Assembly: GCA_016194585.1 (NCBI GenBank)
Contig: JACQBG010000006.1
Coordinates: 62,001 to 126,000 of the forward strand
Reading direction: 5' to 3'
DNA from: Gemmatimonadota bacterium
GTDB lineage: Bacteria > Gemmatimonadota > Gemmatimonadetes > Gemmatimonadales > Gemmatimonadaceae
Length of the DNA stretch: 64,000 nucleotides
Position numbers and translations under genes: made by a program. This document shows, piece by piece, positions 3,259 through 29,038 of this stretch. The notes beneath the pieces are model-generated. The model searched no databases and had not been told where the DNA came from. It saw only the letters and a program-made list of their open reading frames with translations. Position 1 is the stretch's first letter. Each line of letters begins with the position of its first letter.

Positions 3259-4446
3259 GTGCCGAGAGCCTCAGGCGACCCGGGACCGATGCTGCAGGAG
3301 GCCATGCGTCGCGTATCGGACCCGGCGGTCCGCGCGATCGGCGAGAAGCTGGCGGCCGGCGCTCGCCTCGACCGCGCCGACGGCCTCACCCTGTTCCGCT
3401 CGGGCGACCTGCTCGGCATCGGCTCGCTGGCCGACGCGATGAACCGGGCGCGCAACGGCGACGTCGTCACCTTCGCGTCGAACCAGCACATCAACCCGAC
3501 GAACGTCTGCGTGCTCCGCACGACGTGCACGTTCTGCGGCTATGCCCGCCTCCCGAAGGAGGAGGGCGCCTACCGCTACACGCTCGACCAGGTGCTCGCC
3601 GAGGCGGCCAATGCCGCCGACGGCATGACGCGCGAGTTCCACATCGTCGGCGGTCTCGACATGAAGGCGGGCCTCGCCTACTACGAGGAGATGTTCCGCG
3701 CGCTGAAGTCGAACTTCCCGCACGTCCACATCAAGGCGCTCACGGCGGTCGAGATCGCGCACGTGGCGCGCATCGAGAAGATGTCGTGGCGCGACGTGCT
3801 CGTCGCGCTCAAGGCCGCGGGGCTCGACACGCTCCCCGGCGGCGGCGCCGAGACGTTCAGCGCGGCCGTGCGCGACCGCATCGCGGGCAAGAAGCTGGCC
3901 GGCGCCGACTACATCGGGGTGCACCGCACGGCGCACGAACTCGGCATCCGCTCGAATTGCACGATGCTCTACGGTCACGTCGAGACGCTCGAGGACCGCA
4001 TGGAGCACCTGCAGATGCTGCGCGACCTGCAGGACGAGACCGACGGGTTCCTCGCCTACATCCCGCTCGCGTACCACCCGGACGACAACGCGCTCGGGCG
4101 CGAGCTCGGCCGGCAGGGCACCGCGACCTCGGGGACCGACGACCTCAAGATGCTGGCCGTGGGGCGGCTCTTCCTCGACAACTTCGCGCACGTGAAGAGT
4201 CACTGGATCATGGTCTCGCAGCCGATCTCGCAGCTCGCGCTACACTTCGGCGTGAACGACCTCGAGGGCACGGTCGTCCGCGAGAAGATCTACCACGCCG
4301 TGGGCGCGCATACGCCGCAGGCGATGACGCTCGACGGCCTCATCGCGCTCATCCGCGGCGCCGGCAAGCAGCCCGCCGAACGCGATTCGTTCTACCGCAT
4401 CCTGCGCACCTTCGAGGCGCCGGCGGGCGAGCCCGTGCCGGCGTGA
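3259..4446 (+). CDS. mqnE: Aminofutalosine synthase (radical SAM)
   Basis: Radical-SAM enzyme that joins the MqnA product 3-[(1-carboxyvinyl)oxy]benzoate to SAM-derived adenosine, giving aminofutalosine on the futalosine route to menaquinone. Family signatures include PGGGAE, a TMLYGH motif and IPLAYHP. The cluster cysteines are Cys84, Cys90 and Cys93, that is CX5CX2C, not the canonical CX3CX2C seen in the neighbouring MqnC. The GTG at 3259 has GGAGTAGG just upstream, in the end of fabF; an ATG at 3289 is an alternative. The 395-residue length suits the family. mqnA follows within two bases. The name rests on motifs plus the mqnE-mqnA-mqnC context. Confidence 0.9.
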   Translation: MPRASGDPGPMLQEAMRRVSDPAVRAIGEKLAAGARLDRADGLTLFRSGDLLGIGSLADAMNRARNGDVVTFASNQHINPTNVCVLRTTCTFCGYARLPKEEGAYRYTLDQVLAEAANAADGMTREFHIVGGLDMKAGLAYYEEMFRALKSNFPHVHIKALTAVEIAHVARIEKMSWRDVLVALKAAGLDTLPGGGAETFSAAVRDRIAGKKLAGADYIGVHRTAHELGIRSNCTMLYGHVETLEDRMEHLQMLRDLQDETDGFLAYIPLAYHPDDNALGRELGRQGTATSGTDDLKMLAVGRLFLDNFAHVKSHWIMVSQPISQLALHFGVNDLEGTVVREKIYHAVGAHTPQAMTLDGLIALIRGAGKQPAERDSFYRILRTFEAPAGEPVPA

Positions 4447-6891: not shown

Positions 6892-7569
6892 GTGGCTGAT
6901 TTCCTCAACGCCGTGTCGGCGACGCTGGTCTCGATCCCGCTCTGGCAACTGTACCTGCTGCTCGGCGCGATGGCGTTCATCGAGGGGATCTTCCCGCCCG
7001 TGCCGGCCGACGTGGTCGTCGCGCTCGGCAGTTTCCTCGCGGCGCGGCGTGGCGCGAACTATTACGTGACGGCGTCGTCCATCGTCATCGGCAGCGTCGC
7101 CGGGGCGATGGTGGTGTACGCCATCGCGCGCCGGTACGGCGCCGAGTGGCTCCACGCCAAGTTGAAGAAGGCCGGCGTCGACAACCTCGAGCAGCGTCTC
7201 GAGGTGATGTATTCGCGCTATGGACTCACCGCGCTCTTCGTGAGCCGCTTCCTCCCCGGGCTGCGCGCCGTCACGCCGCCGATGTCCGGCGCCACGCGCG
7301 TGCCGCCCGTGCGGACGGCGCTCGTCTTCCTCGCCGCGTCGGCGATCTGGTACGGCGCCATCGCCTGGATCGCGTTCCGGGTGGGCGACGACTGGGAAGG
7401 GATGCAGCGCGCCGTGCGCCACTTCGCCCGCCAGGTCGGCATCGTCGCGTTCTTCGCCGCGGGGTTGCTGGCCGCCTTCGTCATCGTGATCGTGCGGCGG
7501 CGCGCGGCGGCGCGCCTCGCGAAGGTCATCGACGAGGCGACGAGCGGAGAAGGCACGCCGGAGGACTGA
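6892..7569 (+). CDS. DedA-family membrane protein
   Basis: Inner-membrane protein of the DedA/SNARE-associated family (225 residues), a family implicated in lipid-carrier recycling and membrane homeostasis. Visible features: an early amphipathic/hydrophobic hairpin with E...FPPVPAD near residues 30-45, the family motif [16 protein letters not shown], and a final transmembrane segment before an arginine-rich cytoplasmic tail. The start is GTG. The stop shares one base with the ATG of the recombinase gene. The exact substrate cannot be read from the sequence; a role in undecaprenyl-phosphate or phospholipid translocation is only an inference from the family. Confidence 0.88.
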
Positions 7570-8477
7570 TGCTCGCGGACGGCGTCGCGCGCGCCTTCCT
7601 GCTCGAGCGGTTCGAGGAGCATCTCGCGCTGGAGGACGGCGCGTCGCCGCGCACGCTCGAAGCGTACGCGCGCGACCTCACCCGCTTCGCCGAATGGGCC
7701 ACCGCGCGCGGCGTCGCCTCGCCCGGCGCGCTCGACGCCGCGCAGCTCCGCGACTTCGTGTACCACCTCAAGGACCTCGGCCTCGCGCCCGCCAGCATCC
7801 GCCGCTCGGTGTCGGCGATCCGCACGTATTTCCGGTTCCTCATCGCCGAAGGGCAGCTGGCGCGCGATCCGAGCGAACGGCTCGAGACGCCCAGGAAGTG
7901 GCGCACGCTCCCCGAGGTGCTCACCGCCGACGAGGTCGGGCGTCTCATCGGCGCGATATCGCTCGACGAGCCCCTCGCCTTCCGCGACCGCGCGCTGCTC
8001 GAGCTCGCCTACGGCGCGGGGCTGCGGGTGAGCGAGTGGATCGGGCTGGAGGTGAAGGACCTCATGCTCGAGGACGCGCTCGTGCGCGTGTTCGGCAAGG
8101 GGTCGAAGGAGCGGCTCGTGCCGATCGGGCGCGCGGCGATCGGCGCGGTGGGGATGTACCTGCGCGAACTGCGCCCGCGGATCGAGAAGGGGGAGGGGAA
8201 GGGACGGCTCTTCCTCAACGCGCGCGGCCGGCCGCTCTCGCGCATGGGCGCGTGGCAGATCCTCCGGAAGTACGTCGAGCTCGCCGGGATCACCAAGCAC
8301 GTGAGTCCGCATACGCTGCGGCACTCGTTCGCGACGCATCTGCTCGAGGGGGGCGCCGACCTGCGCGCCGTGCAGGAGATGCTGGGCCACGCCGACATCT
8401 CGACGACGCAGATCTACACGCACGTCGATCGGGAGTACCTGCGGTCGGTGCACAAGCAATACCATCCCCGAGGGTGA
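7569..8477 (+). CDS. xerD: Tyrosine recombinase, XerC/XerD type
   Basis: Site-specific recombinase that resolves chromosome dimers at dif. The 302-residue protein has an N-terminal SAM-like DNA-binding domain (about 1-105) and a C-terminal catalytic domain with all tyrosine-recombinase residues: Arg153 (GLRVSEW), a lysine in GKGSKER (177 or 180), His248-x-x-Arg251, His274 and nucleophile Tyr283. Lack of a phage-type arm-binding domain and the length fit XerC/XerD rather than an integrase. It overlaps the DedA gene by one base. The matching dif site lies at 28,146-28,173. XerC versus XerD cannot be settled from motifs alone; XerD is slightly favoured by length. Confidence 0.85.
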
Positions 8478-26451: not shown

Positions 26452-27176
26452 TGGCCGAGAAGGCGCTCGTCATCGTCCCGACGTACAACGAGAAGGAGAA
26501 CATCCGCAAGCTCATCGACGCGGTGCTCCCTCAGGATCCGCGCATCGAGATGCTCATCGTCGACGACAACTCGCCCGACGGCACCGGCGACATCGTCGCC
26601 GGCATCGCCGCGGCCGACCCCCGCGTGCACCTGCTTCGCCGGGCGGGGAAGCTCGGACTCGGCACCGCCTACCGAGACGGCTTCGGCTGGGCACTCGAGA
26701 ACCCGGACTACGAGTACATCTTCGAGATGGACGCCGACTTCTCGCACGATCCCGCCCACCTGCCGAAGTTCCTCGACGCGGCGCAACGGGCCGATTTCGT
26801 GCTCGGGTCGCGCTACCTCGACGGCAACGTGACGGTGGTGGACTGGCCCATGCGCCGGCTCCTGCTCAGCTACTTCGCCAACGTCTACGCCCGGTGGGTG
26901 ACGGGGCTGGAACTCTGGGACGCGACGGGCGGCTTCAAGTGCTTCCACCGTCGGGTGCTGGCGGCGATCGACCTCAAGCATGTCCGCTCGAACGGTTACG
27001 CCTTTCAGATCGAGATGAGCTTCCGGGCCATCCGGAAGGGGTTCAAGCCGGTCGAGATCGCCATCACGTTCACCGACCGGACCCACGGCACCAGCAAGAT
27101 GAACCAGGGGATCGTCCGCGAGGCCATCTGGATGGTGTGGCGGCTCCGCTGGTGGGCGCTCGTCGGCCGGGTATGA
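26451..27176 (+). CDS. Polyprenyl-phosphate mannosyl/glucosyl transferase (DPM1-like GT2)
   Basis: Soluble-type family 2 glycosyltransferase (241 residues) most like dolichol-phosphate mannose synthases. Motifs: VIVPTYNEKENI at the N-terminus, IVDDNSPDGT, FEMDADFSHDP (metal-binding DxD region), and the late TFTDRTHGTSKM segment typical of Dpm1-type enzymes. It has no obvious C-terminal membrane helices, unlike the GT2 at 20,963. The ATG shares one base with the YfhO-type stop. It likely makes the lipid-linked sugar used by the YfhO-type protein. The exact sugar is not determinable. Confidence 0.88.
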   Translation: MAEKALVIVPTYNEKENIRKLIDAVLPQDPRIEMLIVDDNSPDGTGDIVAGIAAADPRVHLLRRAGKLGLGTAYRDGFGWALENPDYEYIFEMDADFSHDPAHLPKFLDAAQRADFVLGSRYLDGNVTVVDWPMRRLLLSYFANVYARWVTGLELWDATGGFKCFHRRVLAAIDLKHVRSNGYAFQIEMSFRAIRKGFKPVEIAITFTDRTHGTSKMNQGIVREAIWMVWRLRWWALVGRV

Positions 27177-27994
27177 GCATCCCCGGGGGACGTCGCTTCT
27201 GGAAGATGAGCGGGTCGGGGAACGACTTCCTCTTCTTCGATGCCCGCACGGAGGCGCCAGGGGCGCTCTCCGACCCGGCGACGATCGACCGGATCTGCGC
27301 CCGCGCGACGGGGGTCGGCGCCGACGGGGTGGTGTTCATCCAAGATGATGCAAATGAATCATTTAGGATACGCTACTTCAACCGGGATGGCAGCCTCGGC
27401 GAGCTCTGCGGCAATGCATCGCTCTGTACGACGCGGCTCGCCAGGGAGCTCGGGGTCGCCAAGGGCGAGAGCTTCCAGTTCGCCACCGACGTCGGGCCGA
27501 TCGCGGCGCGGTTCGTGGACGGGCTGCCGGAGATCGACCTGCAGCCGGTCGAGGGGCTGCGTCCGGACGCAGGCATCCCGGTGGAACCCGGCGAGATCCG
27601 CATCGGATTCGCCAACACAGGGGTTCCGCATCTCGTTGTACTGGTTGAAGATACGGAGTCCGTCGACGTGATGGGCCGGGGGCGGGTCCTGCGGCACCAC
27701 CCGAGCCTCGACGCGGGCGCGAACGTCAACTTCGTCGCCAAGTCCGGCAGCGGTCCGTGGAGCATGCGGACGTTCGAGCGCGGCGTCGAGGGAGAGACGC
27801 TGGCGTGCGGCACCGGCGCCGTGGCGACCGCCGTGATGCTCGAAGCCTGGGGGTTGAGCGGCCCTGAGACGGCCTTGGAGACCCGGTCCGGACGTGTGCT
27901 GACCGTATCGATCAAGCACGCCGGCGGCGCCATCAAGCCGTCACTGCGTGGAGAGGGGCGGATCGTGTTCGTCGGGGAGCTCGCCGAGGTTTAG
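27173..27994 (+). CDS. dapF: Diaminopimelate epimerase
   Basis: PLP-independent racemase that turns LL- into meso-diaminopimelate for lysine and peptidoglycan. The 273-residue protein has two catalytic cysteines at the expected places: Cys79 in the first half and Cys212 in LACGTGA. The KMSGSGNDF opening and RYFNRDGS are typical. An oddity: the first motif reads LCGNASLC where most family members have a CGNGxRC pattern, so the usual Gly and Arg are missing. Part of the coding sequence near 27,340-27,375 is AT-rich for this window. It overlaps the GT2 gene by four bases and is the last + strand gene before the strand switch. Confidence 0.88.
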   Translation: MSIPGGRRFWKMSGSGNDFLFFDARTEAPGALSDPATIDRICARATGVGADGVVFIQDDANESFRIRYFNRDGSLGELCGNASLCTTRLARELGVAKGESFQFATDVGPIAARFVDGLPEIDLQPVEGLRPDAGIPVEPGEIRIGFANTGVPHLVVLVEDTESVDVMGRGRVLRHHPSLDAGANVNFVAKSGSGPWSMRTFERGVEGETLACGTGAVATAVMLEAWGLSGPETALETRSGRVLTVSIKHAGGAIKPSLRGEGRIVFVGELAEV

Positions 27995-28145
27995 CTCCGG
28001 CCGTTCGAGTCGAACGACGCCTCGGTTTCACGCGGATCGGTCGGTGCAGGGCTCTTCTCAGGTCGCGCCCGGCCTTCCAGCAACCACTTACAGCACAATG
28101 CCTTACAGAGTCAGAATGGACTTTCCCACAGGATTCTGGATTTCA

Positions 28146-28173
28146 TATTTACATAATACATATTATACGTAGT
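28146..28173 (-). other. dif: Putative dif site (XerC/XerD recombination site)
   Basis: On the - strand the 28 bases read as an 11-bp left arm ACTACGTATAA, a 6-bp spacer TATGTA and an 11-bp right arm TTATGTAAATA. Against the proteobacterial consensus the left arm (ACTTCGCATAA) matches at 9 of 11 and the right arm (TTATGTTAAAT) at 8 of 11. Against the Bacillus right arm (TTATGTAAACT) it matches at 9 of 11. Arm length, spacer length and the inverted ATAA/TTAT core all agree. Its location exactly where two long blocks of co-oriented genes converge is what a chromosome dimer-resolution site in the terminus should show. A tyrosine recombinase is encoded at 7,569-8,477. Confidence 0.8.
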
Positions 28174-28372: not shown

Positions 28373-29038
28373 TTACTTGGTCGCGGGTACCGCGGTCAGC
28401 TCGCCTACGCGAAGCTTGGCTTCGGCCAGCACCGGCGAGTCGATCTTCACGGACAGCTCCTGCCAGATCTTGAGGGCCTCGTCCTTCTTCCCCGCCAGCG
28501 CCAGGGTGCGGGCGGCGTCGGCCAGGTGCATGTCCTTCTCGGTCGCGAACTCAGCCTTGTCGGCCGCCGCGCGGAAGTGCTTCACCGCCTCGTCGTACTT
28601 CTTGGCGTCGGCGTACCCGGCCGCGATCAGGCTCTCGAGGGAGGCCGCGAAGCTCTTCGAGGCCGACTGGTTCTGGGCCTCCGTGAGCACCTTGATCCCG
28701 TCGTCGTACTTGCCGGCCTTGTAGCTCAACTGCGCGAGCAGGATCGATCCCTGCACCCCGGCCGGGGTGTTCGCATAGCCCTTGATGAGCTTCTGCAGGT
28801 CGGACTGCGCCAGGGCGTCGTTGCCACCGTAGAACGAGTTCTCGGCCCCGTTCAGCACCGTCTCGGCGCGCGCCGCCGTCTTCTCCGCGGTCGACTTCCA
28901 CCACCAGAACAGCACGGCGGCGGCGGCCAGGACGATCAGCGCGATCGTGATCTCGCGGCTCTTCATCCGGATGGTGTCGATCACCGATTCGGTGTCGAGA
29001 TCCATTGGCGGCTGCGCCGCGGCTCCAGTCTTCGTCAT
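28373..29038 (-). CDS. TPR-repeat single-span membrane protein (YfgM-like)
   Basis: A 221-residue protein with a short cytoplasmic N-terminus, one transmembrane helix (about 30-48) and a periplasmic domain of tetratricopeptide-type helices rich in Ala and Lys (about 55-215; examples QLSYKAGKYDDGIKVL and DAAR...GKKDEALKIW). The layout is that of YfgM/ancillary SecYEG-associated chaperone-like proteins; the name is by architecture only. It is the last - strand gene before the terminus and is followed by a strong terminator. The 165 bases upstream separate it from csoR and hold only a 7-bp GCCGGGC/GCCCGGC hairpin near 29,070. Confidence 0.75.
   Translation of the reverse strand: MTKTGAAAQPPMDLDTESVIDTIRMKSREITIALIVLAAAAVLFWWWKSTAEKTAARAETVLNGAENSFYGGNDALAQSDLQKLIKGYANTPAGVQGSILLAQLSYKAGKYDDGIKVLTEAQNQSASKSFAASLESLIAAGYADAKKYDEAVKHFRAAADKAEFATEKDMHLADAARTLALAGKKDEALKIWQELSVKIDSPVLAEAKLRVGELTAVPATK

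Follow-up and report, generated by a model that had tools for sequence, protein, structure and literature searches.

At dif, the XerC and XerD recombinases separate joined daughter chromosomes. The stretch of Gemmatimonadota DNA analysed here (64 kb in full, hereafter the window) raises the question of whether a short AT-rich sequence, located where the direction of its genes flips, is such a site, and what the conserved nine-letter element beside it could be. The following features of the window are needed for the argument.

7569-8477, plus strand: xerD, encoding a tyrosine recombinase of 302 aa that scores over the cut-off of TIGR02225 and under that of TIGR02224.
27173-27994, plus strand: dapF (Pfam DAP_epimerase), the last plus-strand gene before dif and its conserved neighbour in families f1 to f3.
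28122-28130, plus strand: DnaA-box-like 9-mer TTTCCCACA, oriented towards the XerD arm at a distance of 15 bp.
28146-28173, minus strand: dif site of 11-6-11 structure, ACTACGTATAA TATGTA TTATGTAAATA as read on the minus strand.
28146-28156, minus strand: XerD arm TTATGTAAATA, assigned by similarity (9/11 to the XerD-type arm of B. subtilis) and adjoining the DnaA-type box.
28157-28162, minus strand: central region TATGTA, the most variable part of the site across the phylum.
28163-28173, minus strand: putative XerC arm ACTACGTATAA, 9/11 to RNTKCGCATAA.
28373-29038, minus strand: gene for a TPR-like protein, the first minus-strand gene after dif.

The 28-mer at 28146-28173 (TATTTACATAATACATATTATACGTAGT) contains 5 G+C of 28, versus ~69% GC for the contig. 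The original prediction had described its 11-6-11 architecture and counted its arm matches, and our recount returned the same values: on the minus strand, the left arm agrees with the degenerate proteobacterial arm at 9/11 positions, and the right arm with that of E. coli at 8/11 and with that of B. subtilis at 9/11. The total of 17/22 is the highest arm score of the window, with a runner-up at 14 and ten shuffled windows at 14-15. The 20-bp core has a single match in the window at ≤3 mismatches, with 0.00 expected. With the dif sites of E. coli and B. subtilis, which are served by XerCD or CodV/RipX, it has in common the length of 28 bp, the 11-6-11 structure, the occurrence of one site per chromosome, and the terminus position. 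The arm sequences of Gemmatimonadota differ, however, matching on the minus strand at 7/11 and 8/11 to E. coli and at 8/11 and 9/11 to B. subtilis. We identify the 28-mer as the dif site of a Gemmatimonadota chromosome.

In the genome from which the window was taken (3.34 Mb, 50 contigs), the dif 28-mer was found once and its reversed control not at all. The exact 24-mer is present in 13 other Gemmatimonadota records and, surprisingly, in 8 Bartonella records. At ≤3 mismatches it was found in 114 of 298 Gemmatimonadota genomes, nearly always as a single copy, again with no match for the reversed control; the single copy that had been expected per genome was thus seen in the window's genome and in almost all relatives. 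A looser 19-bp core with one mismatch allowed was found in 287 of the 298 genomes, but at this setting the reversed control also yielded matches, so only exact 19-bp matches were used.

A few genomes gave more than one match. The double match in G168 was rejected as a pair of sites, the flanks at the two contig ends being identical and the two therefore one site. The second match in G023 (contig C9, L136) was judged a coding coincidence; it falls inside a reading frame, its contig is phage-like, and its XerD side is divergent. The single-contig assembly G157 carries two dif-like sites on opposite strands, G157:C1 777059 (L196) and 3732205 (L212), with a common centre and right arm, which could reflect a fused second replicon, an inserted element, or an assembly error. 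As for the eight Bartonella records (L003, L004, L007, L009, L010, L011, L014, and L021), the exact 24-mer has no DnaA-type box there. In L003 its place (4270-4293) is immediately upstream of a small gene pair resembling a toxin-antitoxin module, with phage tail-sheath and regulatory genes nearby. A prophage may use this 24-mer as its Xer site, or it may be the dif of Bartonella itself.

In most f1, f2, and f3 loci, the distance from the end of dapF to dif is 29 to ~460 bp with constant direction, so the expected neighbourhood to dapF held as synteny in these three families, where close relatives have the site at the equivalent place, directly after dapF. We did not find dapF beside dif in families other than f1, f2, and f3. 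The location of dif at a convergent flip of gene direction was likewise confirmed: by a crude GC3 caller, 91% of the coding sequence is on the plus strand to the left of dif and 6% to the right. GC skew in the window is weak (-0.013 left and -0.036 right of dif) without a clean sign change at dif, and therefore fails as a locator of the switch when used alone.

In long assemblies with a single dif site, the distance from dif to dnaA was 42-49% of the chromosome in seven of nine (as a percentage of the contig, G128 49, G080 48, G073 48, G039 45, G069 44, G074 44, and G019 42). In G019, where dif is at 1,930,289, and in G128, the sign of the sampled GC skew and the gene strand both switch at dif, with noise. 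The proposal that the site coincides with the GC-skew switch thus held in complete Gemmatimonadaceae genomes, with dif opposite dnaA and a switch of both skew and strand, but not in the weak skew of the window itself. In the remaining two, the single-contig assemblies G198 and G124, sites plainly of the dif type are only 26% and 15% away from dnaA and the skew is unclear; these chromosomes may be rearranged, their dnaA may lie away from the origin, or the assemblies may contain errors. A terminus position was accordingly found in seven assemblies and, as judged by gene strand, in the window, and not in G198 and G124. No dnaA was found over the cut-off in the window's own draft genome. According to the accessible part of a 2024 report (PMC11237797), replication in Gemmatimonadota terminates where the strand switches in a 600-kb region of high strand bias. 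The dif described here marks such a strand switch, and that part of the report gives no dif sequence for the phylum. With the terminus fixed to the base, the reported region gains an exact reference point.

The recombinases expected to act on dif are encoded as well. The gene at 7569-8477, 20 kb from dif, had been put forward as a complete Xer recombinase of unspecified type; its product is indeed a complete tyrosine recombinase and, with 356.5 bits for TIGR02225 against a cut-off of 329.6 (NCBIfam), can be specified as XerD. On contig C30 there is a XerC-like recombinase with XerC as its best profile (332.6 bits, just below the cut-off of 335.15). Both partners were thus found, XerD over its cut-off and the XerC candidate slightly under. 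In seven of eight genomes examined, 18-25 kb separate dif from the best recombinase match; in the other, G069, the distance is 256 kb. The FtsK gamma domain was found in seven of eight genomes, and the search for it in the window's own draft genome gave no match.

While the original prediction was right about dif, it overlooked the more unusual feature of the locus, a DnaA-box-like element beside it. When the Gemmatimonadota copies were aligned, letters resembling TTNYCCACA adjoined the left arm in every copy of that first alignment. The window has a single TTNYCCACA, the TTTCCCACA at 28122-28130, and no second box at its dif. Counted over 106 distinct sites, the density of the exact 9-mer at up to 60 bp from dif exceeds that at 60-800 bp by a factor of ~290, and 57 exact 9-mers lie at offset -29 or -30 from ACATAA, all in one orientation. 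Corrected for register, the number of distinct sites with a first box (≤1 mismatch, offset -29/-30) is 75 of the 86 that five families contribute. A second box is present in 38 of the 86 and in 34 lies exactly 10 bp from the first, further in towards dif. Exact boxes at offset -29/-30 number 43 in 73 non-redundant sites, with 0.0016 expected by chance.

Resolved by family over 114 non-redundant sites, the box (≤1 mismatch) was found at its fixed place in 31/38 sites of f1, 22/22 of f2, 2/2 of f3, 4/5 of f4, and 4/6 of f6, and in 0/24 of f5 and 0/17 of f7-f11; control positions 20-30 bp off gave at most one. The box would therefore be dispensable for dif in general, as it is missing from its fixed place in f5 and f7-f11. 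Families f4 and f6, for which no dapF turned up next to dif, do have the box, so that it goes with dif and not with dapF; for the same reason, we rejected the idea that it belongs to dapF or to a dapF terminator. Only the two boxes and dif stand out with high information per column; the remaining flanks are near zero, and common descent alone is thus insufficient to explain the box. As a guide motif of the KOPS type, the 9-mer was rejected, since its 15 occurrences in 700 kb of two genomes equal the expected background rate and show no over-representation. No box was found at the equivalent place in 27 pseudomonadotal dif-like sites, nor in the E. coli dif flanks examined. From these comparisons, we read TTNYCCACA as a putative accessory element of dif.

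In f5, 7 of the 24 sites have an inverted box within 50 bp on the opposite side of dif. Such an inverted box (TGTGGANAA), located beside the XerC arm, was noted among the f5 loci L073, L074, L076, L077, L078, L188, and L190.

Which protein might recognize the box is suggested by its letters. The consensus at dif is TTNTCCACA, which differs at one position at most from TTATCCACA, the DnaA box of E. coli and B. subtilis; in GC-rich actinomycetes the DnaA box is TT(G/C)TCCACA (PMC4285127). The box of the window, TTTCCCACA, has two differences from TTATCCACA and stays within a two-mismatch criterion for DnaA boxes. What stays fixed in the boxes beside dif is TT..CCACA, the core of a DnaA box; 32 of the 75 boxes at dif are TTCTCCACA or TTGTCCACA, both published high-affinity boxes of GC-rich bacteria (PMC4285127). 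Upstream of dnaA, TTATCCACA occurs in five f1 genomes, mostly as TTGACTTATCCACA, and TTTTCCACA occurs in G069; no more than one or two boxes turned up there, so that the complete oriC was not pinned down. Tandem boxes one helical turn apart are compatible with cooperative binding of DnaA. Judging from the motif, we lean towards DnaA as the most likely ligand of the box.

The strongest competitor is a plain dif whose boxes bind another lineage-specific terminus protein (MatP-, Tus- or ArgR-like), the likeness to DnaA boxes being coincidental. It draws on the variability of the motif: beside dif, the box is hardly constrained at position 3 and has T or C at position 4, whereas all f1 dnaA promoters seen have TTATCCACA, and this difference makes a protein other than DnaA possible. 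The proteins at other Xer sites, ArgR, PepA, and ArcA, are moreover ordinary regulators (PMC5357621). Against it stand the fixed core and the share of high-affinity DnaA boxes described above. We know of no other protein with a target of the TT..CCACA type, and we give this explanation roughly one chance in three.

Two further explanations concern the 28-mer itself. DnaA-type boxes pointing at an AT-rich element are laid out as in an origin, and the locus might then be an unwinding element for DnaA instead of a recombination site. Yet the AT-rich part keeps the dif-type 11-6-11 structure with fixed arms and a variable centre, and keeps it also in families without the box and in Pseudomonadota, while the location opposite dnaA, the skew, and the gene strand indicate termination; an origin-like function is thus very improbable. 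That the sequence has arisen by chance, or is a feature of the dapF transcript such as a terminator, would fit a convergent gap downstream of dapF. That 114 of 298 genomes have a near-identical site and the reversed control has none, and that families without an adjoining dapF have the site too, refutes this idea, to which we attach next to no probability. Considered jointly, the locus is very probably a chromosomal dif with an accessory TTNYCCACA element in f1, f2, f3, f4, and f6, whose most likely ligand is DnaA.

By analogy with the Xer family, XerC and XerD would bind the two 11-bp arms, and XerCD, presumably activated by FtsK, would recombine two copies of dif and so resolve chromosome dimers at the terminus. 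To this arrangement, f1, f2, f3, f4, and f6 add one or two TTNYCCACA boxes on the XerD side that point at dif and, when in tandem, lie 10 bp or one helical turn apart, as their conserved positions show. A box-bound protein might hinder or assist synapsis or the contact with FtsK. If it is DnaA, it would sit next to XerD and could gate synapsis or the access of FtsK by its nucleotide state; alternatively, DnaA could be titrated at the terminus. We tentatively propose, at somewhat under an even chance, that in several families DnaA, bound beside XerD at dif, governs dimer resolution or is itself governed by the completion of the terminus. If true, this would be a direct molecular link between the initiation of replication and the last step of the chromosome cycle. 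The box keeps a constant distance and helical phase beside XerD in five families with otherwise diverged flanks; a box so placed would count as an accessory element of a chromosomal dif and would open a DnaA link to dimer resolution to direct testing.

That a dif had not been described for this lineage, as the original prediction supposed, did not hold. One was predicted in 2011 for the only Gemmatimonadetes genome then available (Kono et al. 2011, PMC3025954, as given in the accessible part of that paper), so dif was already known in the phylum and the present site is a further one. The site predicted there may correspond to the one described here; the accessible part of the paper does not mention a flanking element. 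What is new here is the TTNYCCACA boxes, which face dif and keep a constant spacing to the XerD arm. DnaA-type boxes near the XerD arm set Gemmatimonadota dif apart from E. coli and the 27 pseudomonadotal dif-like sites, which have none at that place. The plasmid sites cer (ArgR/PepA) and psi (ArcA/PepA) likewise combine a Xer core with adjacent sequences that bind a protein whose principal role lies elsewhere (PMC5357621); their accessory sequences are ~180 bp long and plasmid-borne, whereas the Gemmatimonadota element is 9-20 bp, chromosomal, and of a different motif. Our search of open papers found nothing specific on a DnaA-dif link or on fixed DnaA-type boxes at dif, and in the open literature found a link between DnaA and dimer resolution is undescribed.

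Elsewhere in the genomes, tandem boxes are few and some lie within coding sequence. Tandem DnaA-box-like doublets at G073:C1:1143892 and G128:C1:1950989 are 1.3-1.9 kb from the coding sequence of the ftsK gamma domain, a proximity that could be chance. Several Gemmatimonadaceae also encode, ~200-300 kb from dif and next to a gene with an apparent DUF4388-type domain, a protein of 626 aa with two DnaA-type ATPase domains and no match to the DnaA DNA-binding domain in Pfam (L248 2085-3965, minus strand; also at about 1.40 Mb of G128:C1 and about 1.69 Mb of G019:C1).
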